36,245 nucleotides of DNA from Peptococcaceae bacterium (lineage in GTDB: Bacteria > Bacillota > Desulfitobacteriia > Desulfitobacteriales > Syntrophobotulaceae), in contig JAAYUV010000083.1 in the NCBI GenBank assembly GCA_012517475.1, positions 1-36,245 of the forward strand, given 5' to 3'. Within the stretch, counting starts at the first letter, position 1. Each line of letters begins with the position of its first letter. The notes below the pieces were generated by a model. It worked only from the letters and a program-made list of their open reading frames with translations. It did no database searches and was not told the DNA's origin. The position numbers and the translations under genes were made by a program. Positions 1,300 through 34,596 of this stretch are shown here, one piece after another.

Positions 1300-6998
<5,699 letters not shown>

Positions 6999-9387: not shown

Positions 9388-9432
9388 TTCAAAATCCCCC
9401 TCCATCATTTTATTGTGTTATAAATTATTATC

Positions 9433-11073: not shown

Positions 11074-11096
11074 CTTATTTACCTCCTTTGTATCTG

Positions 11097-11144
11097 CGCA
11101 AAAAATTCACTGCAAAATCACTACTGTTACTTTGCAGTGAATTT
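11097..11144 (-). terminator. Perfect 14-bp hairpin with T-run inside the ars operon (attenuator)
   Basis: The arms AAATTCACTGCAAA (11103-11116) and TTTGCAGTGAATTT (11131-11144) are exact complements with a 14-base loop. On the minus strand the stem runs into TTTTTT and then GCGC. It lies right after arsA and before the reductase gene. It should reduce transcription of the two distal genes or stabilise the upstream mRNA end. Confidence 0.8.
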
Positions 11145-11148
11145 GGCT

Positions 11149-12897: not shown

Positions 12898-12916
12898 GAA
12901 ATCCCTCTTTTCTATA

Positions 12917-13288: not shown

Positions 13289-13306
13289 AATCACACACTC
13301 CTTTTA

Positions 13307-13630: not shown

Positions 13631-13643
13631 TCAATCACTCCTC

Positions 13644-13663
13644 ATATAGATGTTAATCTATAT
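13644..13663. promoter_or_regulatory. ArsR-type operator in front of arsR
   Basis: ATATAGAT (13644-13651) and ATCTATAT (13656-13663) are perfect complements separated by GTTA. The size (8-4-8) and AT-rich character fit operators of ArsR/SmtB repressors. A near copy occurs in front of the next upstream gene, which supports a shared regulator. Confidence 0.75.
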
Positions 13664-13686
13664 ATGTTAATGCCATTACAGCACTG

Positions 13687-13959
13687 CTACATGATATCTA
13701 CTGACAATTTCCTAAACCACAGAAGTTTACTTATCGATATATCAATTTTCTCTGAATTGATACGCTTATCAATAAATACAGCAATATCTCCCATAACATT
13801 TTTCTCGTAACTGGATAAATCCTGAGGTAAGCCTATGTGAATCTGTGGCATCGGTGCAGTGCCGCCACAGCATCCGGTCATAGTTCCTAATAACACCATT
13901 ACAGAACATCCATTTCCTTTAATATATTGCTCTGCTTCATGAGTTACCTCAACTCTCAT
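13687..13959 (-). CDS. CC/Se-motif small protein at the head of the ars operon
   Basis: The protein (about 90 residues) contains MTGCCGGTAPMPQIHIG, the Cys-Cys motif of the family annotated as CC/Se motif (seleno)proteins, in which the second Cys can be selenocysteine. Here both are Cys codons. The rest fits the family pattern of short strands ending in a hydrophobic segment (ISKLLWFRKLSVDI). Its biochemical role is unknown; a vicinal Cys pair could bind arsenite or take part in thiol chemistry (inference). I prefer the ATG at 13959, because GAGAGG is nine bases upstream; the ATG at 13968 directly abuts that site. It is the first gene after the promoter-operator at 14.0 kb and 56 bases before arsR, so it is probably co-transcribed and arsenite-induced. 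Confidence 0.75.
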   Translation of the reverse strand: MRVEVTHEAEQYIKGNGCSVMVLLGTMTGCCGGTAPMPQIHIGLPQDLSSYEKNVMGDIAVFIDKRINSEKIDISISKLLWFRKLSVDIM

Positions 13960-13998
13960 CTTTTTCATCCTCTCAGATAATATTGCTACCCACTGCCT

Positions 13999-14048
13999 AT
14001 ATAGGTGTGTATCTATATATAATATATACCGCTATCTATATATCGTCA
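13999..14048 (-). promoter_or_regulatory. ars operon promoter with second ArsR-type operator
   Basis: On the minus strand TTGACG (14043-14048), a 17-base spacer and TATATT (14020-14025) form a good sigma-A promoter. Immediately downstream lies ATATAGGT-GTGT-ATCTATAT (13999-14018), which matches the arsR-proximal operator in 15 of 16 arm positions. Repressor bound there would block transcription start. Confidence 0.75.
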
Positions 14049-14202
14049 ATATACTTTGCACAAATTAACACAAAATTAACCTCTATATTTATTGTTATCT
14101 ATATAAAACATTCTATGCACCACTTCATTAAATGTTCTTATATTCATATTGATACTGTTCCTTAATTTAATTCCTTTAAAATCTTTATGTTAAAATATGT
14201 AT

Positions 14203-14245
14203 TAATAAAAAACCGGTCAGGGTGACAGACTGCTACCATGACCGG
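14203..14245 (-). terminator. Intrinsic terminator of the mer-type operon
   Basis: On the minus strand CCGGTCA (14239-14245) pairs with TGACCGG (14213-14219); the interior can also pair GGT with ACC. A run of six T and ATT follows. It lies about 70 bases after the thioredoxin-like gene. Confidence 0.85.
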
Positions 14246-14314
14246 AATATACTTTGAAAAATATTAAACTGATGAGGCTGGATTGCTCCGACCCCAGCAT
14301 TTAAAGTTGTTACC

Positions 14315-14584
14315 TTACTGTCCAAGTCCTGCTCTTTTTAATGCTTCAAAATCGATTCCCCTGTTGTTGCAGCAATCTACTAATTTCCCATTGACAGCAA
14401 CAACAGGAACTCAATTAATGCCGTACTGCTTAGCCTTTGTTTCGCATTCGTTGGTATCACACTTCTTGTTTAAGTCATAGACCTTAACTTCACAGTTAGG
14501 GCAAGCAAGGGCTTTAATCTCCTTTACTGCGTTTTCACATACATAACACCCTGCAGTAAATACTTCAATAAGTCTCTTCGCCAT
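14315..14584 (-). pseudogene. Thioredoxin-like small protein with an in-frame TGA at codon 58
   Basis: The start is the ATG at 14584 with AAGGAGGG upstream (MAKRLIEVFTAGCYVCENAV). The frame meets TGA at 14411-14413 after QYGIN and then continues with VPVVAVNGKLVDCC and ends GIDFEALKRAGLGQ at a TAA (14315-14317), for 89 codons. The part after the TGA is clearly the second half of the same fold (cis-Pro in VPVV, then a strand), so the gene was 89 residues long. The N-terminal half has a CxxC site (AGCYVC), and ACPNC and a CxxxxxC pair follow. Related MerR-adjacent proteins, as I recall them, have Ser, Arg or Thr at the TGA position. A nonsense mutation is most likely; recoding is discussed as a finding. 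It follows merR by one base and could bind or reduce mercury. Confidence 0.75.
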
Positions 14585-14585
14585 T

Positions 14586-14993
14586 TTAATCACTTCCCTC
14601 CTTAAATTCTTCTAAAATTGAGCATTTATCAAGTGGGCCTTGACCTGGGCACTTCTTAGATAAGTCATATAAAATAGACTTGATTTTCTCCAGGTCAGAT
14701 ATTTTTTGTTCGATTTCTTCAAGCTTTTTGGAAGCAAATTGCTGTATATCGTGGCAATCATAATCTTTACCATCAGATACAGAAAGCAGCTTATTAACTT
14801 CCAACAGGGTAAAACCTAACTCTTGAGCCCGTTTAATAAATTTAATACGCTGTACTACTTCAACTGGAAACTGTCTATATCCTGATTCAGTTCTTGGTGG
14901 CTTTGAAATCAGCCCCAGCCTTTCGTAATATCTAACAGTTTCAATATTTACATTAGCCTCTTTTGCAACCTTGCCAATTGTTAGTCCTTTCAT
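14586..14993 (-). CDS. merR: Mercury-responsive MerR-family regulator
   Basis: MerR proteins hold RNA polymerase at an over-long promoter and untwist it when metal binds. With the ATG at 14993 (GGAAGG eight bases upstream) the protein has 135 residues: an N-terminal winged helix (LTIGKVAKEANVNIETVRYY), the dimerisation coiled coil (about 80-112), and cysteines at 80, 115 and 124 (DYDCHD, KKCPGQGPLDKC). Their spacing equals C82, C117 and C126 of Tn501 MerR, which bind Hg(II) in a three-coordinate site. It is therefore more likely a Hg(II) sensor than a general MerR. The in-frame GTG at 15002 overlaps the ribosome site and is rejected. No merA or mercury transporter was found in the window. Confidence 0.85.
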   Translation of the reverse strand: MKGLTIGKVAKEANVNIETVRYYERLGLISKPPRTESGYRQFPVEVVQRIKFIKRAQELGFTLLEVNKLLSVSDGKDYDCHDIQQFASKKLEEIEQKISDLEKIKSILYDLSKKCPGQGPLDKCSILEEFKEGSD

Positions 14994-15013
14994 ATGGCTC
15001 ACCTTCCAATATT

Positions 15014-15690: not shown

Positions 15691-17508
15691 CTACTCAACC
15701 CGAACAGGCGCTTTTGTTCTAGTTTTAATTTCCGTTTGCTGGGCCGGCGTATGCAGCAGACCGCCTGACGCCGCTGCCCCTATTCCAGGTTCCTCCGGTA
15801 CTTCCTCACATGCAGCGTGTCTTCGAATGATTTCATCCTCCAGCTCGTGCCGGTCCGCATATTCCACTCTGCGTGCAGATTTTTCCGCAATCTCATAGGG
15901 CTTGCCGAAGGTGATGCCCCATTCAAGGAACAGCTTCAGTCGGGTACGCATGGGATAAGCACCTGTCTTGGTGACAATAAAATGACCCTTGGGCATGGAC
16001 TTGAGCTCATCGGGAGTCATGAGAGGGCGTTCGATCATCTGCAGGCTCTGACTGGGATCGTTTTTACCACGGCTGACAGAACCGCTCATGACAGTCTTGC
16101 ACCCCATGGCCTTCGATAATATCTGTGCAGACTCGCTGTTGGGAGCAAAGCCCCCGAATACCGTATCCTGGCAGTTATCGATGATGATGGCGGCCCCCTC
16201 CTTGCCATAGTTTTTTTCAAGCTGCGCAAAGCTTTGTATAATAGCCACTATGGACACGCGGCGGGAACGGGATGCACTGAACATCATCTCTGCAGATTCT
16301 ATCTTGGGGATGGTGCCGATCTCATCTAAAAACATCATAATCCTGTTGGGGAGCTTGCCGCCATGCTCGTCGGCTACAGACAGGATTTCCCGATAGAGCT
16401 GCTGGACAATCAGGCTGATGATGAAATACTTGGTGTTGTCTTCTTCCGGCATTACCAGGAATATTGCACTTTTGTTTGTACAGAACTTCTCCGCATCTAT
16501 AGCCGTATCAAAGCATAGAATCTGCTCCAGCTCTGAATCTAAAAAAGCGTTGAGTCGGGACAGTGCCGTAGAGAGGACGCTCTGCATGGCCTGCTCCGCA
16601 GTGTTGAGCGCCGCTCCTGCAAACCATTTTGTTTTGTGCTCATCCGGCAGATGAGCAAGAAGCAGTTGGAACAGTGTCCGTCCCTTGACGCCGCTTGGTG
16701 CCAGCAGATCCTGTATAAGTTTGAACACCGAAACGATGTGCCGCTTCTTCGGCTCACAGTATTCCGCAATAAGCAGGATAACAGAAGTTAAAAGCCCCTC
16801 TGCTGCGTCATAGAAGAAGGCATTCTGTCCTGCCATAGCGGTATCAAAGCCTCCGGAGTTAATAATGGTCTTAGCAGTGATCTTGGCATACTTCTCCGCT
16901 CTTGCTTTGTAGGAAAGGTTCTGCGGATCGGCGAGATAGGCGTCCATATAGCGATTAACCAGATGCAACAGGTTGTTGCCGTCTGAGCGGGTAGGATTTC
17001 TAAGGTCAATAACAGCAACATTGTAGCCGTAGTAGTCTTTTGCGATAGTCGCATAGTTTCGGTAGAGATCACCCTTGGTATCGGTTGTAATAAAGCTCAT
17101 TCCGGACGCACAGGCGTATTCCAGGTTTGGATACAGAAAGTTTGCGGTCTTGCCGACACCTGCAGCGCCGATCATCAGGCAGTGTATGTCATCATCGTCC
17201 ACAAGGGCATAGCCGTGGAGAGCAGCCCGATCAAAAAGAGACGCCTTCCGCCAGCCCACAATCAGCCCCTGCGCTGTGGGGAGATTCTCCCCTTTGCGCC
17301 ATTTCTCCGGCTCATAGGGAATTTCCGTATAAGTCCTTTTTATTTCATTTTTCGTCACCCAGCGGGCAGTGCCGTGCTGGCCGTCACCCACGGTTTTGGA
17401 TTTGATGCCGTTTAAGGTATAGTAATGCGCTAGGAGCGATAAAAAACCGATGACGCTGAACATTGTCAGCGCCGCCGCAATTAAGGTGATGATTTGAGAT
17501 GTTTGCAA
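15691..17508 (-). CDS. VirD4/TraG-type coupling protein (605 residues)
   Basis: The coupling protein is a membrane-anchored hexameric ATPase that brings the relaxase-DNA complex to the type IV secretion channel. A membrane helix at about residues 7-29 is followed by the Walker A GAAGVGKT (114-121), the TTDTKGDLYRNY segment typical of TraG/VirD4, and Walker B IMMFLDEIGTIP in the second half, followed by SIVAIIQSFAQLEKNYG. The length is normal, and only one membrane segment is visible, as in Gram-positive versions. The start is the ATG at 17508 with a GGGGGA ribosome site. It follows the toprim gene by 13 bases. Confidence 0.95.
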   Translation of the reverse strand: MQTSQIITLIAAALTMFSVIGFLSLLAHYYTLNGIKSKTVGDGQHGTARWVTKNEIKRTYTEIPYEPEKWRKGENLPTAQGLIVGWRKASLFDRAALHGYALVDDDDIHCLMIGAAGVGKTANFLYPNLEYACASGMSFITTDTKGDLYRNYATIAKDYYGYNVAVIDLRNPTRSDGNNLLHLVNRYMDAYLADPQNLSYKARAEKYAKITAKTIINSGGFDTAMAGQNAFFYDAAEGLLTSVILLIAEYCEPKKRHIVSVFKLIQDLLAPSGVKGRTLFQLLLAHLPDEHKTKWFAGAALNTAEQAMQSVLSTALSRLNAFLDSELEQILCFDTAIDAEKFCTNKSAIFLVMPEEDNTKYFIISLIVQQLYREILSVADEHGGKLPNRIMMFLDEIGTIPKIESAEMMFSASRSRRVSIVAIIQSFAQLEKNYGKEGAAIIIDNCQDTVFGGFAPNSESAQILSKAMGCKTVMSGSVSRGKNDPSQSLQMIERPLMTPDELKSMPKGHFIVTKTGAYPMRTRLKLFLEWGITFGKPYEIAEKSARRVEYADRHELEDEIIRRHAACEEVPEEPGIGAAASGGLLHTPAQQTEIKTRTKAPVRVE

Positions 17509-17521: not shown

Positions 17522-18955
17522 TTACATGGTCATGATAAAATTTGCGGTTTGTCCCTGTACCGGAAGCAGTGACGGTACTTCCAGTTCGACAAAGAGCTGG
17601 GCTTTAACACAGTCCAGCGCGAGCCGCATATATGAACGGACGAGGTTATGTTTATCCTCCCAGCTTCGGATTCCGGCTGAATGGACCTGACGGCTGATGT
17701 CTTCCAGATCCAGCCGTATATCCTCCGCCTTAGACCGCAGCCAGCCGCGATCCTGATGGGGACGGTAGCTGTTTTGAAGTTCTTCTAAGAGACGCTCCAT
17801 GGACACTGGGTGCTCCATCTGTCTATACTGATGTTGGGCCGAAAGCAGGGCAGCCGCCGCAATACATTGCAGATGTGAGATCACAGACTCTGCATTTGCT
17901 GCCGCCAGCTTACCCGATTCAATCAGCGGCTTTAGCCTTGAGTGGTACTCCTGCGCCACTCCATCCGGATTTTTTACAGCTCGCAGAGCTTCACAGACGA
18001 CGAGAAGCTCCCTGCACACCTGCGGCAGAAGCACAAGCCTCGAATGCTCACTTGCCGGGATGGGTTTGATACCGTGTTTTGCTTTCAAGTCCTCATTCCA
18101 ATCCTTGTATTGAGATAGCATAACGGAAATGTCCATATAGTCCTGCTCCGCCAGAATATCCTTCAGCCGTCCATTAGCTTCAATACCGGCTTCATCATGA
18201 TCCAGGCACAGCATAATATTTTTTAAATGAGGATTCTGCTTTAGCTGCTGGAGCATGGCGTGTTCCGAAACCCCGTCCAGCGTGACGTAGCTGTGGTCTT
18301 TCCAACCCTCCATGTGAAGCGTAATAAAGGAGAGCATATCGACAGGTGCCTCAAACACATAAAGGACGCCGCTCTTACCGATCCAGTGGAAGCTGTATTT
18401 CGGGTCACTGCCTTCCACATTTCCTTTATAGGGATCGCCCTTGGTATAGGTACCTCGCTTGTGGGCGTGCCGGGGAACGCCGTTCTCATCCAATCCGACA
18501 AACACTGCATTGTGGTATTTCTTGTCCTCATATATCAACTTTTCATGTGCGAAGTGCGATAGTACCTCTCGGTCTATAAACCGCTGCTTAATGAGATATG
18601 CGAACACCCGATGCATGTCGGAGTTGGCTTCCGGCAGAGTGAAATCTTTTTTAGGCGGCGGTGCACTCTTGGCGGTCTGGTTCCACTCCACACCGGACTC
18701 GCCGCCAAGGAGCAGCGTCACTGCTTCGGGAAAACTCAAATCAAAAAACTGCTGGACAAAGTCGATGGCACGGCCGCCTTCCTTACGGCTGTGCCTAAAC
18801 CATTGGCTGCCGCGCACGGTCACGCTGTCGTGCCGTTTCCAGCGCCATTCTCGTCCGGAGCGTATCAGCTGCTCCCCCTGCCGCTGCAGGAAATCTACAA
18901 GGTCTACTGAATTGGCTCGCTGTTTTTGCTCTTCGGTAAAATGGATATATGCCAT
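17522..18955 (-). CDS. DUF3991/toprim-domain protein (primase-like), 477 residues
   Basis: The N-terminal ~95 residues (FTEEQKQRANSVDLVDFLQ, ... GGRAIDFVQQFF) resemble the zinc-free primase-associated DUF3991-type region. The middle carries a toprim domain: a first strand with Glu in LYVFEAPVDMLSF and the later acidic pair in IMLCLDHDEAG. The C-terminal third is helical and unassigned. Such proteins accompany relaxases on conjugative elements and are thought to help priming or processing of transferred DNA (family knowledge; function not proven). The start is the ATG at 18955 with AGGGAGGG upstream. It ends FIMTM, one of five element proteins with a Ser/Thr-Met terminus. Confidence 0.85.
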   Translation of the reverse strand: MAYIHFTEEQKQRANSVDLVDFLQRQGEQLIRSGREWRWKRHDSVTVRGSQWFRHSRKEGGRAIDFVQQFFDLSFPEAVTLLLGGESGVEWNQTAKSAPPPKKDFTLPEANSDMHRVFAYLIKQRFIDREVLSHFAHEKLIYEDKKYHNAVFVGLDENGVPRHAHKRGTYTKGDPYKGNVEGSDPKYSFHWIGKSGVLYVFEAPVDMLSFITLHMEGWKDHSYVTLDGVSEHAMLQQLKQNPHLKNIMLCLDHDEAGIEANGRLKDILAEQDYMDISVMLSQYKDWNEDLKAKHGIKPIPASEHSRLVLLPQVCRELLVVCEALRAVKNPDGVAQEYHSRLKPLIESGKLAAANAESVISHLQCIAAAALLSAQHQYRQMEHPVSMERLLEELQNSYRPHQDRGWLRSKAEDIRLDLEDISRQVHSAGIRSWEDKHNLVRSYMRLALDCVKAQLFVELEVPSLLPVQGQTANFIMTM

Positions 18956-19122: not shown

Positions 19123-22032
19123 TTAATAAGATTGTTTGAGTCCGTAGTCATCCGGTGCGTGCCCCTGAGCCACCTTTTTCTGACGGAGCTTACGGCGCAG
19201 TTTACTGTCCACCTGCATGCCGGGGCTGCTGGGAAGCTTACTTTGTTCTTCTTTGAAGATCCTACTTAGGTGATGCAAAAGTCTTGTGGCTGCGAGGAAA
19301 GGAGACGGATCACGGAAGGAGTCCAAATGGCCAAGGATAAACTGGGCATAGATATTCCCCTGTTCTGCAGACAGGGTGAGCCAGCGTACTGCGGCCTCCC
19401 GGTCCCTTGGAACCTCATGCCCCATAAGGTAGAGCTTGCCGAGTACATACTGAGCATATTGATTTTCCTGCTCGGCAGACAGAGTCAGCCACTTGATTGC
19501 GACATTGATATCTTTGGGAACATCCTCTCCCAGGAGATAGAGCTTTCCAAGCTGATACTGGGCGAATGAATTGTTTTGCTCTGCGGATTTTGTGAACAAC
19601 TCTACCGCTTTGGGAATGTTTTTCGGAATATCTTCACCGGTCATACACAGCTTTGCCAGCGTATACTGTGCAAATTGATTTCCAAGGTCTGCGGAAGCCA
19701 TCAGCCACTTGACAGCGGCATCCACATCCTTGGGAATACCCTCGCCGGCAAGATATAGCCTCGCAAGGGCAAACGCAGCGTACTGGTTATCCTGTTCAGC
19801 CGACAACGTGAACAGCTCCTCGGCTTTTTCAAAATTCTTTTCTACATGACTGCCGTCACGATAGAGCTTTCCCAGGGCATATTGAGCAAGGCTGCTGCCG
19901 TTATCCGTGGCCTTTGTCAACCATAGGATGGCCTTCTCCGCGTTTTCATGACCGCTGTCTGTATCCAGATAAATCTTGCCCAGCATGTATTGGGCATGGA
20001 CATTGCCGAGCCGGGCTGCCTTTTCAAAATAGCTGATGGCTGCCGGTACGTCTCTTTCCGTGCCGGTCCCGGTATAGAGCATCTGTCCCAGGCGGTACTG
20101 GAGCTTGTCATCATGGCTCTGCTCCTCCAACCTTTGAAATCCCAGAAAAGCTTCCTTAAAATGTAGCTCTGCTTTTTCCGAATCCTTTGCTGTGCCTATG
20201 CCGTCCCGGTACATTTTCGCCAACTCGTAGGAAGCATATGGCACATGCTGTCTGGCAGACCTGCGATATAAATCAAACGCGATTTCAAAATCCTGTTCTA
20301 CACCTTGACCCCGGTAAAAAAGACCGGCAAGGGAATATTGGGCATATTTATGATTTTGGGAAACCGCCATATCAAACCATCCTGCCGCTTCCCCATAGTC
20401 CTGCTCCGTTCCAAGCCCTGCTGCATACATTTTACCGATGCGGTATTCTACATAACGGTTTTCCTTTTCTCCCTCGATTTCAAGAAATGCGGTAAGGGCC
20501 TTGCTGTACCAGGAGAAAGAAAGAGCCTTGTCTATCTTCACGCCGAGTCCGTCCGCATACATACGGCCGATGTCATGCATGGCAAGAGCATTTCCAGTTT
20601 CGGCTTCCTCCAGGAACAATTGGAGGGCCTGCTCAAAGTCAGGTTCTATATCATCACTGCCGTAAAGAAATGCACGGGCCTCTTTGTAGCGTTCACTCCA
20701 TGCAATATGGAGATGTGGTTCTCCAGAATCATTCTTAGCGGAATCTGTAGGGGATGAATTTTCCGGAATAGAAGGCGAAATATCCTCACCGTCCTCAATC
20801 CGTTCATTTAGTACTAGCGGATATTCTTCCTCTGTAAGTAGGAAATCAGATTCCTCCGCCTCGGATACTGTTTCTTCATTAAATATATCCGCATTTTCTT
20901 CACCCTCAAAAGTAAAATGGTGACCGCCGATGTTCATTGCTTCAGCAATCACCATATTTTTTATGCTCTTGAATTCCTTCTGCTGAGAGAGTGGAAGCGG
21001 GTCAGGAAGTTCATCCTTATAGGTACGCAGCACTTCATTGCGCAGCTTATACCATTTTGCATAGGCTTCCGCCACCCTTGCGTCCTTTGCCAGCTCATCC
21101 ACGATCTGATTTACGAGTTCTTTCAGCGGTGCTTTGAGATAACCATACTGTTTTTTGCCGGAGGTATGTTTGAGCCGCTCTGCAAGCTTAGACAGCAGAT
21201 CTTCCATTACTTTATTCTCACAGACTCCCGATTGCATCTGGACCAGGATATCCTGAAGCGCGTCACGGCTCTGTTGGGTGAGGGCATTCCTTCTCTCGGT
21301 CTGCTCGGGATAAATCTGGATCAAATCCTGCTGAAAGATCTCTCTTGCAAGGCTGCTCCGCATTTTTTCAATGGCAGGTTTTGTGACATAGCCCTCGCGA
21401 TGATTCACAGAATACACTATCATGTGGCAGTGCGGATGATGCCCCTCGTTATGAAAAGCTGCATACCAGCGCAGGTTTTCAGGGGCAATCTTCATTTGCT
21501 CGGCAAAAATGTTCCGCTGTTTTCGCAAGAGTGCCATCCACGCAGCGGCATTGTCATATCCCAGCCGCGTGGCATCCTCCCGCCGCAGGGAAATGATTGG
21601 TGTCCAAATGTTTCCGGTGTGCTGTGCGATTTCTTCAGCAGCCTGTGACAATACCAGCGGTTTGTCCTCGTCAGAGAATAGACCGTGGGTACCAAGCTTT
21701 TCCACGCGGGGGCGGGTGGCAATATAGTTGACATAGACCTCCTGGTGCGATATCTGATCCAGATTGTGATCTATCGCAGCGGTAATGAATTCCGACGCAT
21801 TTTCCAAGGTTGGCTTGTTCCGGTAGTCTTCGTACTCAAACAAGCGGACGGAATCGGAGAACCGGGAGAGGATATCCTCAATGCGCTCTATCTGCTTTTG
21901 TGTTGCAGGTTGATTCTTTCTATTTTGCGGAAGCTTTTCAACCCCTTCCCTTGTCCCCATATATACCAATAGGTTCTCCGCATGTTGTGGGTCGTTTTTG
22001 ATGTAGCCGCATTTGAAGATAATCCTTGGCAT
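19123..22032 (-). CDS. MobP-type relaxase fused to about eleven Sel1 repeats (969 residues)
   Basis: The relaxase nicks the origin of transfer and stays covalently bound to the 5' end of the transferred strand. The three-His metal site is clear in FHNEGHHPHCHMIVYS (about 193-208); candidate nucleophile tyrosines lie in the first ~105 residues (for example LLVYMG, EVYVNYI). Residues ~210-370 are helical, and ~380-440 are acidic and probably disordered. From about 447 to 905 there are roughly eleven Sel1-like repeats of ~36 residues (pattern AQYxLGKLYLxGExVPKDxxxAxxWL), followed by a basic tail (KLRRKLRQKK). The head matches MobP3-type relaxases. Sel1 repeats usually bind proteins, so the tail may dock the relaxase on the coupling protein or other partners (inference). 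The start is the ATG at 22032, two bases from the MobC-like stop. Confidence 0.93.
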   Translation of the reverse strand: MPRIIFKCGYIKNDPQHAENLLVYMGTREGVEKLPQNRKNQPATQKQIERIEDILSRFSDSVRLFEYEDYRNKPTLENASEFITAAIDHNLDQISHQEVYVNYIATRPRVEKLGTHGLFSDEDKPLVLSQAAEEIAQHTGNIWTPIISLRREDATRLGYDNAAAWMALLRKQRNIFAEQMKIAPENLRWYAAFHNEGHHPHCHMIVYSVNHREGYVTKPAIEKMRSSLAREIFQQDLIQIYPEQTERRNALTQQSRDALQDILVQMQSGVCENKVMEDLLSKLAERLKHTSGKKQYGYLKAPLKELVNQIVDELAKDARVAEAYAKWYKLRNEVLRTYKDELPDPLPLSQQKEFKSIKNMVIAEAMNIGGHHFTFEGEENADIFNEETVSEAEESDFLLTEEEYPLVLNERIEDGEDISPSIPENSSPTDSAKNDSGEPHLHIAWSERYKEARAFLYGSDDIEPDFEQALQLFLEEAETGNALAMHDIGRMYADGLGVKIDKALSFSWYSKALTAFLEIEGEKENRYVEYRIGKMYAAGLGTEQDYGEAAGWFDMAVSQNHKYAQYSLAGLFYRGQGVEQDFEIAFDLYRRSARQHVPYASYELAKMYRDGIGTAKDSEKAELHFKEAFLGFQRLEEQSHDDKLQYRLGQMLYTGTGTERDVPAAISYFEKAARLGNVHAQYMLGKIYLDTDSGHENAEKAILWLTKATDNGSSLAQYALGKLYRDGSHVEKNFEKAEELFTLSAEQDNQYAAFALARLYLAGEGIPKDVDAAVKWLMASADLGNQFAQYTLAKLCMTGEDIPKNIPKAVELFTKSAEQNNSFAQYQLGKLYLLGEDVPKDINVAIKWLTLSAEQENQYAQYVLGKLYLMGHEVPRDREAAVRWLTLSAEQGNIYAQFILGHLDSFRDPSPFLAATRLLHHLSRIFKEEQSKLPSSPGMQVDSKLRRKLRQKKVAQGHAPDDYGLKQSY

Positions 22033-24877: not shown

Positions 24878-25243
24878 TTACATGCTTATGGTCATGCCCT
24901 GTGTTTCTTCCTCGACAGATCCCTCAGCATCGGTCTGAGTCTGCGGAGCGGGAGGCGCTTCGGCCGCTGCCTGCTCACGCTGGCGGCGGCTCTGCCGTGC
25001 CGGACGCTCTCGTGCAACCGGAGTCTGTTCGGCCTCCGGTGTTGGTGCTTGTTCCTGTGTTGCTTCCGTATCCATGCGGCTTTCCACATACTCTCGGACT
25101 TGTGCGGGAACGAGGCGCTCATAAGTCTTGTTGAGGTAATCCTTTAGCTCCTGTTCCACGGTCTGTTCCTTTTTGTCCATGAAAAAACGGAGAGCATCCA
25201 GCTTCTCCGATGGGAAAGGGATTTTCAATTCAGTTGTGCTCAT
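24878..25243 (-). CDS. DUF6103-like element protein (copy 2) with long tail, 121 residues
   Basis: This is a paralogue of the protein at 22870-23127. Shared features are a first strand (LKIPFPSEKLDAL), LKDYLNKTYERLVPAQVREY and VESR, followed here by a ~65-residue tail rich in Glu, Gln, Pro, Thr and Arg that is likely disordered. It ends GMTISM. The ATG at 25243 has AAAGGAGG upstream. It precedes the ParM gene by 26 bases. The function is unknown; it may bind DNA by analogy with ribbon-helix-helix proteins (inference). Confidence 0.65.
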   Translation of the reverse strand: MSTTELKIPFPSEKLDALRFFMDKKEQTVEQELKDYLNKTYERLVPAQVREYVESRMDTEATQEQAPTPEAEQTPVARERPARQSRRQREQAAAEAPPAPQTQTDAEGSVEEETQGMTISM

Positions 25244-25258: not shown

Positions 25259-25915
25259 TTATAGTTGTTTCATCTGAATATCCGAAGCTTCCGGTTCCTG
25301 TACAACCCATTTTTCATAGTCCTTTGTTGGGCAGTGCCCCGCAAGCATGAATGAAAAATCAGAAAGACGCTGGGGATTAACGCCGCTGCACTCTAACTGC
25401 ACACCATAGACTCCGTTAAAGATTCTTACTACATCAGCGTTTAAAACGTCAGCCCATTCCTTACGGCCTTCTATAGTCAGCGTGTCGGATTTCAGTTCAC
25501 AGACTGTTGCAAGCTCTATGTCCTCATCGCTGTGGACCAGGTGAATGTCCTGCAAAGAAATGCTTATTAAATCCTTAAGTTTCATACCCAGAGCAGGCTT
25601 TTGTTCCTGCTGCACAGCTAAAAAGTCAGCAGCGTTTGGAAGAAATGAAGAGTATCGGGCATAACTGCTACCCTCGCTTTCTATGAGTATCCCATCCCTC
25701 CTGTCCTGACCCACAACTAAGAGGCAATGATACACCCCCTGTCCGTCGCAGTACATGAGATCAATATTGTCTTTAATAAAGTCATAATCATTCAACATGT
25801 TTTTAGAAAATACATCATACTCCTGAGAGGCAAGCTCAATTATTTTTTCAATTACACAGTCCCTAGGCTGAAAATCATCGGTCTTTCTTTCGAACACGGC
25901 TTTAGTCTTTAACAT
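25259..25915 (-). CDS. Uncharacterised element protein (DUF6329-like), 218 residues
   Basis: The frame starts at the ATG at 25915 with AAGGAGGG and encodes a soluble protein with alternating strands and helices. Visible segments include NIDLMYCDGQGVYHCLLVVG, GILIESEGSSYARYSSFLP and IFNGVYGVQLECSG. DUF6329 is a tentative recall. There is no signal peptide or membrane segment. It sits between the Fic gene terminator and the second DUF6103-like gene. Function unknown. Confidence 0.6.
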   Translation of the reverse strand: MLKTKAVFERKTDDFQPRDCVIEKIIELASQEYDVFSKNMLNDYDFIKDNIDLMYCDGQGVYHCLLVVGQDRRDGILIESEGSSYARYSSFLPNAADFLAVQQEQKPALGMKLKDLISISLQDIHLVHSDEDIELATVCELKSDTLTIEGRKEWADVLNADVVRIFNGVYGVQLECSGVNPQRLSDFSFMLAGHCPTKDYEKWVVQEPEASDIQMKQL

Positions 25916-26002: not shown

Positions 26003-26800
26003 CTACATGCTCTGAGTAAAATCTGATAAGCCTTTACGCTCCTGCTTCATGCCGTTAGCAAGAGCCAACGCCTTTTCCCATGTTTTTTCTGTTTCATACT
26101 TGAAAAACTCATACAAAGGTTTTAGTTCCTCAGTTTCATCATACTTTTGCAGGCACTCATAGTACAGGTGTTTATCCTCGTCATAGACAATGAGGGGCGG
26201 ATGATCATGTGTCATCAGATAGTAGTTCATGAGCGTCCTTCCGACACGACCATTGCCGTCTGCGAAGGGATGGATATATTCAAACCTTGCATGAAGATAT
26301 GCGGCAGCTTTTAAAACGTCCTTCCCCCTATGCTCATTTACTTCTGCAAACAGCGCTGTCATATCCTTTTCCACATTTTCTGCAGCAGAGCCTACTTCAT
26401 GGATACCCGTTACATAATCATGCTTTTTAAATTCACCCGGCCGCTCCTCATTTGCAATAAGCTTACGTTCATCATATGTCCCACTAGTGAGAACCTTGTG
26501 AATCTCCTTAACCAGCTCTATGCTAAGGGGTTCCTTTTTTATGATTTTTTCTTTCAAAACTTCATAGCACAGCTTCTGGTTTTGCTGTTCAAATACAGCA
26601 CGGGGACTTCCGGTATAATTCACAACTCTTCCATTCTCAAAGATTTCTCTAGTATCGTGATAGGTGATTTCTTCGTTCTCTATTTTTCCGGAATGAAATG
26701 CAAACAGGATACGGAAGCTGTCAAGGTATTTATCTAAATCAGCAGCGGACGCAATTTCGTATGACTGCCACAGTTCAACAGCCTGGTTATATTGTTCCAA
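26003..26800 (-). CDS. fic: Fic-domain protein (probable AMP transferase) with internal inhibitory motif
   Basis: Fic enzymes transfer AMP or other nucleotides to target proteins. The active-site loop HPFADGNGRVGRTLMNYY is complete (His, Gly-Asn-Gly-Arg). An N-terminal SGKIEN fits the inhibitory (S/T)xxxE(G/N) motif, which marks a class II, self-inhibited Fic. I place the start at a TTG at 26800 (LEQYNQAVELW), with AAAGGAGGGG just upstream. The in-frame ATG at 26836 lies inside the -10 box of the promoter and cannot be translated from that mRNA. The protein then has 265 residues and ends DFTQSM. It has its own promoter and a terminator behind it, so it is an independent unit in the element. 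Confidence 0.88.
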   Translation of the reverse strand: MEQYNQAVELWQSYEIASAADLDKYLDSFRILFAFHSGKIENEEITYHDTREIFENGRVVNYTGSPRAVFEQQNQKLCYEVLKEKIIKKEPLSIELVKEIHKVLTSGTYDERKLIANEERPGEFKKHDYVTGIHEVGSAAENVEKDMTALFAEVNEHRGKDVLKAAAYLHARFEYIHPFADGNGRVGRTLMNYYLMTHDHPPLIVYDEDKHLYYECLQKYDETEELKPLYEFFKYETEKTWEKALALANGMKQERKGLSDFTQSM

Positions 26801-26834
26801 GCACACCCCTCCTTTTTTTTGCATCACTTGCTTC

Positions 26835-26843
26835 ATTATACCA
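26835..26843 (-). promoter_or_regulatory. Extended -10 promoter of fic
   Basis: TATAAT (26835-26840, minus strand) is preceded by TGG, giving an extended -10 TGnTATAAT. The -35 region is poor. Transcription would begin just after the ATG at 26836, which supports the downstream TTG as the start of fic. Confidence 0.6.
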
Positions 26844-26956: not shown

Positions 26957-28042
26957 CTATGGAAGATAGCTTCTCGGATTTTGCATTTCCCCATTAATCC
27001 GCACTTCAAAGTGAAGATGAGGTCCGGTGCTTCGTCCTGTGGAACCTACCTGTGCAATGATATCCCCTGCTTTGACCGTCTGTCCCTCAGTAACTAAAAT
27101 TTTTGAGCAGTGTGCGTAGAGGGTGATGAAACCGCCGCCGTGGTCAATGGCCAGATGATAGCCGTATCCAGTAGTTTTGTAACGTACAAACAGCACCGTG
27201 CCATCAAGTGCTGCATGGATGGGTGTCCCTTTGGCTGCGCCTATATCCAGCCCTGAATGACCTTTAGGCTGTCTTGTAAAGGGGTCCATTCTATAGCCAA
27301 ATTCCGAGGTAACCATGTTGCGCCAGTTTTCACCAAGCGGAGAACAGAAGCCATCCGCACCAATAAAGGGTGTATCGGATAGGGGCAGGCCGTTTACCCA
27401 TGCATCGAATTCTTTCCCGTAGGTAGGAACACTACCGCCATATTTAATGCGGTAGTAGATCTCCGAAGCATTGGCCTGATCCTCATAAGTGATCATCCTA
27501 TCAAGAGTTTTCATAAGGTTTTCATAGATTTCCGGCAGTGATTTAAGCGGCACAGCCACGGTGTATTCTTCTTCCGATGTTGTACCGTCGCCGTTGCCCA
27601 CAGTACGGGTGCGTTTCTCATATCGCACAAAGCAGCCGACAAAAGCCCGATAGTCGACTCCCCGCAGGGAGTCGGCGCCGAAATACAGAGAATAAAAAAT
27701 AGCCTTGACCTGTGTGGAATCAAGGCTTTCGTTCTCAATCATCGGTGCAATTTCAGAAATTGCATCATCCAGTTCCAAGAAGCTGCTTCGCATATCATCA
27801 ATGTACCGGCGGTAGTCCTCCGGCACCTGACCCGAGATCACTCCACCGTTAAAGGACAACTGAACAGCCGTGCTGTTGTGGTCGGCGGTACCGGAGATGA
27901 GACTTAAGATCATCACGATTATAAGGATAAAGGGTGTTAAAATTGCGGCGATAACCACCCCGAGTATCTTCCATGTCCTTTTATCGGTGGCAGCGGCGAT
28001 GGCTGCCTTTACCGCAAGGGCTATGGTTGCAGGATCTGCCAT
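26957..28042 (-). CDS. Conjugation cell-wall hydrolase: membrane anchor, lysozyme-like region, M23 peptidase (361 residues)
   Basis: Gram-positive conjugation needs a hydrolase that opens peptidoglycan for the channel. A membrane helix at about 25-50 (ILGVVIAAILTPFILIIVMI) is followed by a ~150-residue region like the CD1108-type module of such proteins. The C-terminus is a zinc M23 endopeptidase: GHSGLDIGAAKG (His and Asp ligands) and GPHLHFEVRI (HxH), with YAHCSKILV between. Its fold cuts peptide cross-links. The domain pair with one anchor matches VirB1-type hydrolases of conjugative elements. The start is the ATG at 28042 with GGTGGTGA upstream, six bases after the cyclotransferase stop. 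Confidence 0.9.
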   Translation of the reverse strand: MADPATIALAVKAAIAAATDKRTWKILGVVIAAILTPFILIIVMILSLISGTADHNSTAVQLSFNGGVISGQVPEDYRRYIDDMRSSFLELDDAISEIAPMIENESLDSTQVKAIFYSLYFGADSLRGVDYRAFVGCFVRYEKRTRTVGNGDGTTSEEEYTVAVPLKSLPEIYENLMKTLDRMITYEDQANASEIYYRIKYGGSVPTYGKEFDAWVNGLPLSDTPFIGADGFCSPLGENWRNMVTSEFGYRMDPFTRQPKGHSGLDIGAAKGTPIHAALDGTVLFVRYKTTGYGYHLAIDHGGGFITLYAHCSKILVTEGQTVKAGDIIAQVGSTGRSTGPHLHFEVRINGEMQNPRSYLP

Positions 28043-28048: not shown

Positions 28049-28552
28049 TCACCACCATTTCAGGTCGAACAGTGTGCCCTGTTCCGGTCCCTGTTTCTGC
28101 TGCTCCTGCGCCAGGTGTATGGATTTTTCCACGGCCCTCTCCAGAATTTCGGTATCAAAGCCCGCCGACCGGTAACCCTCAAGAATGGTATTCAGATAAT
28201 AGTCCGAAGGAGCTCCGAAGTGATGACCGTCATTCATGATATAGACCATGGCGTGAACAGTTTTTCCCTTCAGCTCCACGGGAAGTATCTCCTTGCGGTA
28301 GAAAGAAGGATATCCTTCATAGCGGTCGAGAGCTTGCAAATCTTTTTCCTTCAGCTTCCACAGAAGAACAGGAACACTGGAGCCTTTGAGCGGCTCCACA
28401 GTTGCTACGGAACTTCTTAGCCCGCCGCGGAACAGCAGCTCGTAGTCCTTAATTTCACTGGTGCCGACGACCTTAGCCGTCGGGCAGCGAAACGCCATCT
28501 GCGGCAGATTTAGGTTGCTGCCGTAGGCGATATACAGGGTTTCAGATTTCAT
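28049..28552 (-). CDS. Gamma-glutamylcyclotransferase (AIG2-like) family protein, 167 residues
   Basis: The GGCT fold is shown by YIAYGSNLNLPQM at the N-terminus, LWKLKEKDLQALDRYEGYP in the middle (the conserved Glu of this fold follows Arg-Tyr), and AMVYIMN later. Such enzymes release 5-oxoproline from gamma-glutamyl amines or related amide bonds. It lies 19 bases downstream of an amidoligase gene. Pairs of an amide-forming ligase and a cyclotransferase are known from comparative genomics and suggest a cycle of attaching and removing a tag or building a peptide (inference). The ATG at 28552 has GGAGG upstream. Confidence 0.85.
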   Translation of the reverse strand: MKSETLYIAYGSNLNLPQMAFRCPTAKVVGTSEIKDYELLFRGGLRSSVATVEPLKGSSVPVLLWKLKEKDLQALDRYEGYPSFYRKEILPVELKGKTVHAMVYIMNDGHHFGAPSDYYLNTILEGYRSAGFDTEILERAVEKSIHLAQEQQKQGPEQGTLFDLKWW

Positions 28553-28571
28553 TTTTAATCATTCCTCCTTT

Positions 28572-29624
28572 TTACATGGACAAGGAAAGGCCGGGGCTTT
28601 CTTCTTGTTCCCCGGCCTGCTCCTGTTCATTTTCAATTGTTTGCTCCTGCTGCACCGGCCGAGATTGTGCAGCTTCTGCCAGCTCTTTTTCTTTTTTCTG
28701 CTTTAACCGCTGCTTTTGCTGCTCGGCCTGCGCCGGATCTTTCCATGCGATACAGCCGTCCAGATGCTCCAGCAGGTGGAGCCGGGCGGTTTTGAATTCA
28801 TCACCAATGAGCCCCAGCCTCAGAAGCCAGGTACGGAAGGTATATTTTTCATTGGTGCTGTGGGTTTTCTGGCGGCTTGCACACCGCTGGTTGAGAGCCT
28901 GTGCAGAGATGGCGAGGCACAGCTGGATATATGCCTTGATCTTGCCGGCATGGGTAGTGCTGTTAAACAGCCTGAATTCTATAGTGCCTTTTTGGAACAC
29001 GCTGTGGAGGTTGAGGCAGTGGTAGCGGCTGCTGTGGTAATGCTCCCGGTGTCCGTCGCCGCCGTTATACCAGATGCGGCTTACCTCATCCAGCGTCCGG
29101 GGCTTTTTCCGGTTGATCTCATCCAGAAAGCTCTGCTCCACCTTCTTACAATACTGCCGCTCCCTGGCCACCTCCACCTGCATGGCCTTATAAATCATAT
29201 CCTCCTTGGAGGCCATAATATTGGTGATGTTGCGCAGAGTGTTGGCGTTGTGAGGTGACGCGTCCAGGTGAATATGGATGCCGCAGGATTTGTTCACCAG
29301 CATTCCGGCCTCCCGCAGCTTGCGCACAACCTCTTGTATGGTTTCGATGTCATCGTATCTGCAGATGGGGCTGACCAGCTCTACACTGTAGGTACTGTCG
29401 GCAGATACAACCCGCCGGCCTTCTTTTTTCTCTGTGGTTATGCTTCCGTCACTCATAACCTTCCACCGGCGGCTCTGGCTGTCCAGCACGGAATATTCTC
29501 CGTAATATCCGCCGTCAAAGTTAGAAGGTGGTCCGAAATATTCTGACAGCACCTGCGCGGCACGCTGACGGGACAGACCCGTCATTTCAATCTCAATGCC
29601 GAAGCGCTGCTCCTTCATGTCCAT
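28572..29624 (-). CDS. Amidoligase family protein (carboxylate-amine ligase), 350 residues
   Basis: The N-terminus RFGIEIEMTGLSRQRAA, then STYSVELVSPICRYDD and CGIHIHLDAS, are signatures of the amidoligase branch of the COOH-NH2 ligase superfamily (acidic metal residues in the first motif, HIH in the third). FRLFNSTTHAGKIKAYI follows. These ATP-dependent enzymes join a carboxylate to an amine; the substrate is unknown. The C-terminal ~65 residues are a Gln/Glu-rich tail ending GLSLSM. The start is the ATG at 29624 with AAGGAG upstream. It lies 18 bases after the VirB4 gene and is followed by the cyclotransferase. Confidence 0.85.
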   Translation of the reverse strand: MDMKEQRFGIEIEMTGLSRQRAAQVLSEYFGPPSNFDGGYYGEYSVLDSQSRRWKVMSDGSITTEKKEGRRVVSADSTYSVELVSPICRYDDIETIQEVVRKLREAGMLVNKSCGIHIHLDASPHNANTLRNITNIMASKEDMIYKAMQVEVARERQYCKKVEQSFLDEINRKKPRTLDEVSRIWYNGGDGHREHYHSSRYHCLNLHSVFQKGTIEFRLFNSTTHAGKIKAYIQLCLAISAQALNQRCASRQKTHSTNEKYTFRTWLLRLGLIGDEFKTARLHLLEHLDGCIAWKDPAQAEQQKQRLKQKKEKELAEAAQSRPVQQEQTIENEQEQAGEQEESPGLSLSM

Positions 29625-29642: not shown

Positions 29643-31475
29643 TTACCGTCCCCCCGCCTTTCCGAAGAGTTTCGCTTTATGTTCTGGAGCCTGCACCATA
29701 AGGTTGTACCGCTCGTTGCCGCATTTGTACAAGCAAACACCCCGCTGGGGGTACCGGATCAGGTTGTATTCTGATTCCTCCAGCTGAAGGGTATCCATAT
29801 AGAACCGCTTGTCAATATTGCCGGCGTTGAATAAAAAAGCGTGAGCCGGAATGGAAAACAGCGGCTTGGTGTACTCCCGGATGCCCTCCAGATTGAAATC
29901 CTCCAGGTTCTGACTGGAGAGGATTACCGCTGAATCCTTTTTACGGACACGCTTCATGAAGTTCCTGACATACTCCACGGCCGTCAGATTGGAAAGGAAC
30001 AGATAGAACTCATCGATGCTGGCGGCGGTATTGCCTGTGGTAAGAAGCTCGTTGCTCATGTAGGACAGCACATTGAAAAGGAGTGCATTTCGCAGGTTTT
30101 TACTAGCCTGCAGAAGCCCCTTGACGCCGAAGGTCACGAACTCGCTGCTTTTAATATTGGTGTGTCCGTTAAAGAATTTGGACTCCGCGCCCTTACACAG
30201 GGAGTGGAGTCCGAGGCAGATTTCCCGCAGGGTTTCTGCTGTGTATAGCTGGCGTTTTTCTTCTTCGAATTCCTTGTATTCCGACTCAATCAGCTCGTAC
30301 AGGTCGGACAGGATGGGGTAATCCGAGGGCTTTAACCGATCAAATTTGCTGTGATCAGTAATGTTCCATTTATCATAGAGCTTGCCCAGCATAATCTCGA
30401 TGGTATCGATCTGGCGGTCATCGAAATCCTTATAGGCTCGGAAAAAGTCCTTGAGAAAGCTGATGTGCTGACTGAGCTTGCTGGTCTGCCGAAATGCCTG
30501 GGGCGCTTCAGTGTCCTTCGGATCACCAATTTCATCCCAGGTCTTTGGTTCCAGAACATTGATAATATACTCTCCGGTCATCAGGTCGATGAAGCATCCA
30601 CCGATATTGTTGGTGAGATCCTCAAACTCCATCTCAGGGTCGAGGCAGATGATTTTCATCCCGGATTCCCTAAGATTGCAGAGAATGAGTTTTAACAGAT
30701 AACTTTTGCCCTGGCCGGAGTTACCGAGAATGAGGATGTTGGCATTGGTCTTATCGTCTGCTCTCCGGTTGAAATCCACGAGGATATTGCTTCCGAATTT
30801 ATCCCTGCCAAGATAGAAGCCGTTTGGATCTGTCTTACCGCTGTAGTTGAAGGGATAAAGATTGGCTACCGAACTGGCGGGAAGTACCCGTTCGAACTGA
30901 TCAGAGAACACATTCCAGCCTGAGGGCATAACGGAAAGAAAGCCCTGCTGCTGGCGGAGCAGGAGCCTGTCTACATTAAGCTTGCTTCGCACCAGCTCGG
31001 TCAGCACCTCGGTCTGCAGGAGCTTGAGCTGATCCGGGTCATGTGCAGACAGCTCGATATATACTGCTGCATGGAGGAGTGGCTCCTTGCTCCGGTGCAT
31101 CTGTGCCACGATGTTGGCAACATCCTGCAGGTTGCTTTCAGCGGTGACTGTCTGCTGCAAATCCTGGGTGCTGCTCCGCTGCATCCGGTTCTTGTTGGCA
31201 GCATTGCTGATGATTTTCTTTTCCTCCACAGGGGTCACATGCCGGGTATAGATATGCAGGGTTACACCGTCCTTTTCACCCAGGTGCCGCAGGATAGCTT
31301 GCTCACTGGTTTCCGTAGGATATTCTCGGAGTACCCAGACACATCGATAGGTGTTGCCGCAGATGAAGTGGTCGGTGTTAAATTTGATGATTGATGGGGC
31401 GATCATATCCAAAAATTCTTGGATATGGAAATCATCCTGCAAGGTAACGGCTGTTTGTACATTCCTTTTTGGCAT
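29643..31475 (-). CDS. VirB4-type conjugation ATPase (610 residues)
   Basis: VirB4 is the conserved ATPase that powers assembly and function of the type IV channel. Walker A is GNSGQGKS at about 251-258, preceded by the usual LGRDKFGSNILVDF; Walker B-like MKIICLDPEMEFEDL follows, and the late SSQNLEDFNLEGIREY is the typical C-terminal ATPase segment. I chose the ATG at 31475 (MPKRNVQTAV) with GAGG upstream; the in-frame ATG at 31517 lies in a terminator tail. The small upstream partner gene sits 2.3 kb away beyond the cargo islet, and two terminators lie in between, so this gene may need its own promoter or read-through. Confidence 0.93.
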   Translation of the reverse strand: MPKRNVQTAVTLQDDFHIQEFLDMIAPSIIKFNTDHFICGNTYRCVWVLREYPTETSEQAILRHLGEKDGVTLHIYTRHVTPVEEKKIISNAANKNRMQRSSTQDLQQTVTAESNLQDVANIVAQMHRSKEPLLHAAVYIELSAHDPDQLKLLQTEVLTELVRSKLNVDRLLLRQQQGFLSVMPSGWNVFSDQFERVLPASSVANLYPFNYSGKTDPNGFYLGRDKFGSNILVDFNRRADDKTNANILILGNSGQGKSYLLKLILCNLRESGMKIICLDPEMEFEDLTNNIGGCFIDLMTGEYIINVLEPKTWDEIGDPKDTEAPQAFRQTSKLSQHISFLKDFFRAYKDFDDRQIDTIEIMLGKLYDKWNITDHSKFDRLKPSDYPILSDLYELIESEYKEFEEEKRQLYTAETLREICLGLHSLCKGAESKFFNGHTNIKSSEFVTFGVKGLLQASKNLRNALLFNVLSYMSNELLTTGNTAASIDEFYLFLSNLTAVEYVRNFMKRVRKKDSAVILSSQNLEDFNLEGIREYTKPLFSIPAHAFLFNAGNIDKRFYMDTLQLEESEYNLIRYPQRGVCLYKCGNERYNLMVQAPEHKAKLFGKAGGR

Positions 31476-31516
31476 TTGGCATTCCTCATTTCTTTTTAGG
31501 CTTTTTAAAATAGGCA

Positions 31517-31548
31517 TAAAAAAAGACCTGTTGACAATTTGAACAGGA
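31517..31548 (-). terminator. Intrinsic terminator just upstream of virB4
   Basis: On the minus strand CCTGTT (31542-31547) pairs with AACAGG (31527-31532), followed by TCTTTTTTT. It lies about 45 bases before the virB4 start. Confidence 0.75.
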
Positions 31549-33742: not shown

Positions 33743-34333
33743 TCAGTCGTTCAGGATGATCCAGCGTTCTCCGTCAAAGTCTTCGAATTTCTCGGTCGTG
33801 ACGTTCTGCTCGAAATATATTGCCAACATCCTCTTGATATCCTCGCTGCCTGCTCGTTTGGTAGAGAAGCCTTGCTCCCGCAGTGTTTTCTCTATGCGGT
33901 TTAAATACGGAAACACCTCGCTTTCCTTTTCGTTGCGCAGCCGGATAATGACAAGAAATTCCCGCGCCGTTGCCATCTGCACCTGTATACGGTCAAGGTG
34001 GGTCAGGTCATGCTCAAGGAGCCTCCGCACAGCAGGGTTATTCTCCTGTTCTATGCGGCTTTTTAAGAACCTCTTATTATCGTCAAAGTTTTCCCGGCTG
34101 TTTAAGCACAGGAACTCCAGTTCCGCCATCCCTTTGAGGACGGTCATCAGGGCGTAGATCCGCGCTGAGATGCTGGCCTCGGAGAGGACAGAAATGTTGG
34201 TGGGCTTGATGATAAAGTACACCAACTCATCGCCGCGGTAAGTCACCAGGCTACGGTCTGTGACGACCTTTGTGTTGATAAGCTGGCGAGTAAACTGCTT
34301 TTGCTTTTCCGCCTTTTTTTCTTTTCTGCTCAT
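33743..34333 (-). CDS. VirB4-associated conjugal transfer protein, 196 residues
   Basis: The ATG at 34333 overlaps the PrgI stop (ATGA), so the two are translationally coupled. The sequence has SLVTYRGDELVYFIIKPTNI, ISARIYALMTVLKGMAEL, EFLCLNSRENFDD, MATAREFLVIIRLRNEKE and FEQNVTTEKFEDFDG. These recall the N-terminal, non-ATPase half of VirB4-type proteins, which in this element family is a separate gene before the ATPase gene. It has no membrane segment. In this window the ATPase gene is displaced 2.3 kb by cargo. Confidence 0.7.
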   Translation of the reverse strand: MSRKEKKAEKQKQFTRQLINTKVVTDRSLVTYRGDELVYFIIKPTNISVLSEASISARIYALMTVLKGMAELEFLCLNSRENFDDNKRFLKSRIEQENNPAVRRLLEHDLTHLDRIQVQMATAREFLVIIRLRNEKESEVFPYLNRIEKTLREQGFSTKRAGSEDIKRMLAIYFEQNVTTEKFEDFDGERWIILND

Positions 34334-34596
34334 TGTTTGGTATACCCCCATTCGTAAGTCTGCTGCTTGATTAAGAAGAAGGCACAGGCATATTTTATAA
34401 AGTCCAGAATGCTGGTATCGTCAAACCGGATGGTTAAAAAAGCATAGAGGGCTGTGATAACGATGGGCGGCAGAAGCTTAAGCTGCGCTAGCGCAAACAC
34501 AGAGAGTAGAAGGCCGACGCCGATGATGCCGATGTCGCGCAGCTGCCACAGCCACAATACTGCTTTGGATTTCAGGTTGTCAGGGTAGATGTACAT
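34330..34596 (-). CDS. PrgI-family membrane protein of the transfer channel, 88 residues
   Basis: PrgI proteins are small two-helix membrane proteins next to VirB4 in Gram-positive type IV systems. Two hydrophobic segments are visible (IGIIGVGLLLSVFALAQL and PPIVITALYAFLTI), followed by FIKYACAFFLIKQQTYEWG, the common family ending. The ATG at 34596 lies inside the end of the methyltransferase frame, whose stop is 25 bases further. GGAGG lies upstream. It is coupled to the next gene by an ATGA overlap. Confidence 0.9.
   Translation of the reverse strand: MYIYPDNLKSKAVLWLWQLRDIGIIGVGLLLSVFALAQLKLLPPIVITALYAFLTIRFDDTSILDFIKYACAFFLIKQQTYEWGYTKQ

Follow-up and report, generated by a model that had tools for sequence, protein, structure and literature searches.

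Several published phage genomes contain an amidoligase gene next to a gamma-glutamyl cyclotransferase gene, with no tested function given for the pair (PMC3485107, PMC11318856, PMC11253131, PMC10945688). In three reports, the amidoligases of phage phiEco32 are proposed to modify the cell wall against other phages, with credit to Iyer 2009 (PMC11318856, PMC11253131, PMC10580990). From the field of conjugation, a study on the F-type T4SS of pED208 describes the movement of ParA, ParB1, ParB2, SSB, PsiA and PsiB into recipients, where such delivery of plasmid proteins dampens the mating-induced SOS response (PMC8406263). Short terminal signals on unrelated T4SS substrates are indicated for the Agrobacterium VirB/D4 system and for Legionella RalF by titles that another report cites (PMC3297438), and a 2025 review poses the export of proteins into other cells by Gram-positive T4SSs as an open question (PMC12857230). 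A literature search of partial coverage recovered no account of the amidoligase-cyclotransferase pair in a T4SS operon.

The DNA analyzed here, henceforth the window, is a stretch of 36,245 nucleotides from a Peptococcaceae bacterium which contains this pair among the T4SS genes of a conjugative element. On the minus strand, which carries all the window features given below with coordinates, the genes run from the C-terminal part of a split VirB4-like T4SS ATPase (29643..31517; NF045975, 1.8e-87, model positions 292-893/894) through an Amidoligase_2 enzyme of 350 aa (AMD; 28572..29624) and an AIG2/GGCT gamma-glutamyl cyclotransferase of 167 aa (GGCT; 28049..28552) to an M23 peptidase with an N-terminal hydrophobic segment, which is probably a VirB1-like cell-wall hydrolase (26957..28042; PF01551, 1.2e-35). 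The gaps between these genes measure 18, 19 and 6 bp and a GGAGG site precedes GGCT, which together fit a single operon. The initial annotation had placed the pair between VirB4 and the cell-wall hydrolase, and its coordinates, strand and position are borne out. As the whole 3.68 Mb genome yields one Amidoligase_2 match above the cut-off and one GGACT match, the adjacency of AMD and GGCT is not a chance pick among many copies.

The element further encodes a VirD4/TraG coupling protein (15691..17508; PF02534, 2.8e-45), a MobL relaxase with Sel1 repeats (19123..22032; PF18555, 7.2e-36), a ParM-like protein, and a C5-cytosine DNA methylase that is incomplete near the contig end (34572..36023; PF00145, 4.6e-19). 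A small membrane protein of 88 aa (34330..34596), with no Pfam match, is named PrgI by inference and from its position, which is conserved in 61 loci. Across this ICE family VirB4 is about 610-624 aa long and looks split, with a separate conserved ORF of about 200 aa upstream in 70/81 loci; its counterpart in the window, an ORF of 202 aa with no Pfam match (33743..34351), would be the N-terminal VirB4 part. The gap between the two parts is a cargo slot, occupied by GGDEF and glyoxalase-like genes in the window and by Fic in other elements, and in five further loci (L082, L084, L087, L096, L110) an ORF of about 600 aa splits VirB4. Elsewhere in the window lies what reads from its sequence as arsenic-resistance cargo (8332-15002), with Acr3-, ArsA-, ArsD- and ArsR-like proteins, a flavin oxidoreductase with a rhodanese-like part and a MerR-like regulator. 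At 1300-7064 the genes of a GroEL-like chaperonin (1300-2919) and of a HEAT-repeat ATPase of 1382 aa (2916-7064) have 4 bp in common; PADLOC gave no match for the ATPase, and this unusual pair is perhaps a defence or stress system.

AMD matches Pfam family PF12224 over positions 1-244/245 (E 1.1e-86, 291 bits against a cut-off of 22) and PHROG 2443 'amidoligase enzyme' (2.5e-102), and a sequence search of the PDB gave no match. Its catalytic domain comprises residues 1-~296 and is followed by a helical/disordered tail (~297-350). The folds nearest to its AF2 model (pLDDT 89, falling below 50 from residue 324) are YbdK (Z 14.0-14.2; Foldseek E 9e-5), plant glutamate-cysteine ligase (13.9), glutamine synthetases (~11.5) and Dop (11.3), by which the modelled fold is that of the glutamate-cysteine-ligase/glutamine-synthetase superfamily. 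Residues E10/E12, E81, H116/H118, E215 and R217 (ExE, E, HxH, ExR) are invariant in 55 sequences from ICEs and viral contigs; YbdK has ExE, HxH and ExR-like motifs whose equivalence to those of AMD was judged by eye, the hhalign comparison of the two being non-significant (E 0.077). AMD is a predicted ATP-dependent ligase, with a putative specificity for gamma-glutamate that is read from the fold alone. GGCT matches PF06094 (GGACT, 3.6e-14), PF13772 (AIG2_2), PHROG 2520 'gamma-glutamyl cyclotransferase' (7.6e-48) and, in phmmer searches, human GGCT structures (6.9e-9). Its AF2 model (pLDDT 93) superimposes on human GGCT with Z 20.1 and an rmsd of 1.8 A over 139 residues, followed by YkqA (19.5), ChaC2 (12.8) and GGACT (11.7). 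Catalytic E79 is invariant in 54 sequences and the loop Y10-G11-S12-N13 is kept at a level of at least 90%; the model is that of a true GGCT fold with its catalytic Glu and YGSN loop.

These predicted folds agree with the initial annotation, which had recognized an ATP-dependent amide-forming enzyme beside a gamma-glutamyl cyclotransferase. The fold of AMD is one that typically activates the gamma-carboxyl of glutamate, and its juxtaposition with a GGCT suggests that a single modification could be installed and removed, or produced and recycled, through ligation by the first enzyme and cleavage by the second; we regard the predicted chemistry of the pair as quite likely to be correct. Inspection by eye shows neither a signal peptide nor a membrane helix in the two proteins, and both look cytosolic.

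A scan of genome contigs with the AMD alignment gave 80 loci, in which VirB4 lies near AMD in 79 and M23 in 75. GGCT follows AMD in 78 of the 79 ICE-type loci with room for it, and the order VirB4-AMD-GGCT-M23, at times with a 166-aa protein after VirB4, recurs in most of the 80 loci across Clostridia. The initial annotation, by which absence of the pair from related elements would have spoken against its reading, is thus upheld on this point. Because these loci had been selected by AMD, a second sample was seeded by VirB4 and comprises 27 elements with a readable VirB4 neighborhood; locus G068, a short contig with neither AMD nor M23 after VirB4, was left out of the tally. Both genes are present in 18 of these elements, neither in 9 and a single one in none, and in most pair-less elements VirB4 directly adjoins M23. 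This all-or-none presence defines the pair as an accessory but well-kept module and not core machinery, and the 9 elements that lack both genes led us to reject it as a core transfer gene. A function as part of the transfer machine is accordingly not supported. On the VirB4 tree the state of the pair has to change 6 times, with 5 changes forced by well-supported branches, implying that it was gained or lost several times as a unit.

AMD and GGCT are under strong purifying selection (median dN/dS 0.075 and 0.173, respectively, with 0.063 for VirB4 and 0.114 for M23), and AMD distances correlate with those of VirB4 (Mantel r 0.82) and of GGCT (0.78). These figures come from related loci, which are not independent, with ORFs called mechanically and some contigs drawn from bins with doubtful names. 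A true exception to the pairing is L106, which has AMD without GGCT, a damaged tail, and M23 on the opposite strand. An apparent loss of GGCT in other loci (e.g. G007, L067, L069) was rejected as an artefact of ORF choice, since tblastn recovered the gene. In an Enterocloster bin the two genes form a natural in-frame fusion of 513 aa (L105:9965-11506), which would be useful for structural work, and in L229 AMD itself is split by three ORFs. Among plasmids, four records gave partial matches.

The pair is common to ICEs and gut viruses, with AMD relatives found by tblastn in 88 phage records. Among 80 loci from IMG/VR, GGCT follows AMD in 77 of the 79 with room, and the terminase large subunit lies at most 9 kb from AMD in 69. 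Blautia phage NatCom_2932 has its methyltransferases followed by a second amidoligase-like protein, then AMD, GGCT, DUF4314 and the terminase small subunit. A second short amidoligase is present in 40 of the 80 IMG/VR loci; this very divergent protein of ~230-254 aa, situated just upstream of the main AMD (e.g. L033:7110-7871), matches PHROG 2443 with no Pfam match, was not seen in the ICE loci, and may be a regulatory or inactive subunit. PADLOC (2023 models) gave no match for AMD or GGCT.

At about 340-350 aa the AMDs of ICEs are longer than those of phages, which end near residue 298 (e.g. ...GNSAWRNAA) and lack the extension. The latter is acidic and Gln-rich and ends in PGLSMSM, PAFTMSM and variants thereof; in the window it occupies 28575..28667, falls in the low-pLDDT region, is detected by the tail PSSM and ends in EESPGLSLSM. 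Three viral contigs (L136, L137, L140) have a tailed AMD, of which L136 and L137 are ICEs. In L140 the tailed AMD and GGCT (9980-11572) lie beside three serine recombinases where the IMG/VR contig ends, and the available stretch is free of T4SS and terminase genes.

Similar endings occur on unrelated ICE proteins, namely DUF6103 (QGMTMSM), DUF6329/DUF5688-type (QGMHLEM), toprim (QEMKLSM), DUF7768 family (PGMSMKL) and Fic (SGMGMQL) proteins, and on some MobL relaxases (e.g. HEQTMSL). Within the window they are found on a Fic/DOC protein (26003..26836; PF02661, 1.3e-22), with the tail-like end GLSDFTQSM, on a DUF6103 protein (24878..25243; PF19598, 2.8e-10; EEETQGMTISM) and on a primase-like DUF3991/Toprim protein (17522..18955; PF13154, PF13155; ANFIMTM). 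The window's DUF6329 protein (25259..25915; PF19854, 7.2e-17) is without the motif, and its MobL relaxase ends in GLKQSY. The motif had been noticed first and was tested afterwards, using a PSSM trained on AMD tails only and a background of 330 ORFs from 400 kb of one related host genome. A strict form of it is present in 38/61 distinct AMD tails, 20/74 of DUF6103, 10/71 of DUF6329, 8/38 of toprim and 10/34 of the DUF7768 family; it was found in 0/330 background ORFs and in none of the VirB4, M23, PrgI, VirD4, ParM and GGCT tails. PSSM scores in the window are 13.5 for DUF6103, 11.4 for AMD, 10.5 for Fic and 7.5 for toprim, against a background maximum of 5.7, and the methylase (2.3) is the only other window protein above the 99th background percentile, and that slightly. 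This percentile is exceeded by 31/71 members of the DUF6329 cluster and by 11/46 relaxase tails; most relaxases have a partial motif or none, including the window copy (98.8th percentile). In viral loci the tail was detected on 1/1098 ORFs. A family of ~155 aa with no Pfam match (L088:4169-4636 and relatives), in which 7/10 distinct members exceed the 99th percentile, is a further candidate exported protein.

Two other readings of the tail were rejected. It is not a tag marking substrates for AMD, because elements without AMD keep it on other proteins (10/113 ORFs, one being the MobL relaxase of L221, which ends in EQEQTPGMTMTM). Nor is it an element of the nucleic acid, be it DNA or RNA: the tails differ in the codons used for serine, proline and stop, and a separate ribosome site follows, so that the conserved entity is the peptide. 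GGCT has a different ending, LFDLKWW in the window (28052..28072), which is of an ICE type and unlike the AMD tail; KWW closes most ICE GGCTs and is missing from those of phages, the only viral-contig GGCTs with it being those of L136 and L137. The protein of ~166 aa and unknown family that lies between VirB4 and AMD in 26 loci (e.g. L003, L010, L051, L060), the window not being one of them, often ends in HRMW or KLW, recalling this KWW.

Relaxases are a class of proteins known to pass through T4SSs. AMD shares its motif with several families and in part with the relaxases, and GGCT does not. A motif common to unrelated cytosolic ICE proteins including some relaxases, and absent from structural proteins, resembles a T4SS secretion signal, and on balance we favor the view that the tail is a C-terminal recognition signal of this kind, for which VirD4 would be the expected receptor. 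It could instead serve docking, regulation or degradation. In its wider form, to which we would give even odds, the proposal is that secretion in a large Gram-positive ICE family is directed by a short tag, consisting of an acidic/Gln-rich stretch and a GM-x-M-x-M-like end, and that amidoligase, primase-like toprim, Fic, DUF6103, DUF6329 and DUF7768 proteins and some relaxases are thereby marked for injection, along with the DNA, into the recipient. The amidoligase pair would be one such effector, and would have been exchanged with phages, whose versions of the enzymes work untagged.

From these observations we infer a chain of events whose activities, substrate, translocation and benefit are all proposed, and to which as a whole we assign a probability of about 0.42. 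The pair would be an accessory module of a clostridial MobL-type conjugative element family that makes and breaks gamma-glutamyl linkages. AMD would use ATP to activate a carboxylate, most likely that in the gamma position of glutamate, and join it to an amine, from which GGCT would remove the gamma-glutamyl group as 5-oxoproline. If the VirD4-T4SS recognizes the PGLSMSM-like motif, AMD would probably be delivered to the recipient together with the DNA, and GGCT, whose ICE-specific ending is a different one, may accompany it or be synthesized once the element has entered. Phages, too, produce both enzymes inside the cell they invade, and a purpose shared by ICE and phage would be to become established there: whether the newcomer arrives in a recipient by mating or in a cell by infection, the pair may assist it through counter-defence or the exclusion of rivals.

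An alternative is that the two enzymes act in the donor only, with the shared tail serving as a ClpXP-type C-degron or as a docking tail for an element protein. Short hydrophobic C-terminal motifs on disordered tails are typical of degrons as well, and GGCT lacks the shared motif; yet the tail is confined to element proteins, is hardly seen in host or phage ORFs, is missing from the structural proteins of the element, as it is from the window's arsenic and chaperonin cargo, and is present on some relaxases, and we consider a purely donor-side function unlikely. Similarly unlikely, in our estimate, is an action on the envelope, as the initial annotation had proposed, in which AMD would couple a cytosolic precursor of peptidoglycan or of a surface peptide to an amino acid or amine, with trimming or recycling by GGCT, so that the wall is changed during mating or that phages and other elements are kept out. 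The operon places the pair next to the M23 wall hydrolase, and modification of the wall to exclude other phages is a suggestion made in phage reports (PMC11318856, PMC11253131, PMC10580990). However, the phage pair adjoins methyltransferases and terminase and not wall genes, and elements without the pair still keep M23. Moreover, by established chemistry GGCT acts on gamma-glutamyl groups whose alpha-amino group is free, which is not so for the D-Glu of the stem peptide as long as L-Ala is attached to it. Of the earlier proposal the mating context is strengthened by the ICE-specific tail common to other transfer-related proteins, which the initial annotation had not foreseen, just as it had made no mention of how common the pair is in phages; the envelope, for which two cytosolic-looking proteins give no direct support, is kept as a less likely target.

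A contribution to host metabolism, in which the pair would make or recycle gamma-glutamyl compounds for nitrogen storage, redox or polyamine handling to the benefit of the host, has in its favor that PHROGs classes the cyclotransferase among moron/auxiliary metabolic genes, and one study of a phage that has both enzymes speculates about a role in nitrogen metabolism (PMC10945688). We find it improbable given that metabolism alone would hardly explain the ICE-specific tails or why the pair is so strictly tied to the T4SS operon or the terminase region. The match of Dop, a member of the same superfamily, to the AMD model (Z 11.3) recalls protein tagging, whereby AMD, in the manner of the Pup ligase PafA, would join lysines of target proteins to the side chain of a glutamate, and GGCT would reverse this. 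But Dop ranks below the glutamate-cysteine ligases, an unsystematic look brought up no modifier protein as partner, and GGCT is closer to the small-molecule GGCT than to GGACT, and we hold tagging to be very improbable.

If export of AMD through the tail is correct, a tag readable from sequence would provide a ready list of candidate T4SS substrates across Clostridia. Likewise, the known but unexplained amidoligase/cyclotransferase pair of phages would gain a setting, the newly entered cell, in which its target can be searched for.

The closest known systems are the modules of Clostridia phages (PHROG 2443 + 2520), as in Ca. Heliusvirales, C. clostridioforme LM41 prophages, a Terrisporobacter prophage and part B of the Tn6164 island (PMC3485107, PMC11318856, PMC11253131). 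They have homologous enzymes in the same gene order with the same catalytic residues as the ICE pair, and the best viral AMDs are about 52-64% identical to the ICE AMD. They differ in that their AMD is without a tail, that it is accompanied by a second, short paralogue in half of the viral loci, and that their context is terminase and methyltransferases, that of the ICE pair being the T4SS. At the level of fold, YbdK and plant GCL are the best matches of AMD, with similar motifs in YbdK as seen by eye, though identity is about 10-12% with no significant sequence match. Human GGCT and B. subtilis YkqA share with the ICE GGCT the fold (Z 19.5-20.1), the catalytic Glu and the YGSN loop, at 22-29% identity, the C-terminal ending being ICE-specific. 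The co-delivery of element proteins that we propose for the ICE AMD resembles that by pED208, a Gram-negative and relaxosome-dependent system for which the accessible part of the report describes no common short C-terminal motif (PMC8406263). Compared with the Agrobacterium and RalF signals, the ICE tail, a candidate signal identified from sequence, is an alternation of Met/Leu residues (e.g. GMTMSM) that follows an acidic/Gln-rich stretch.
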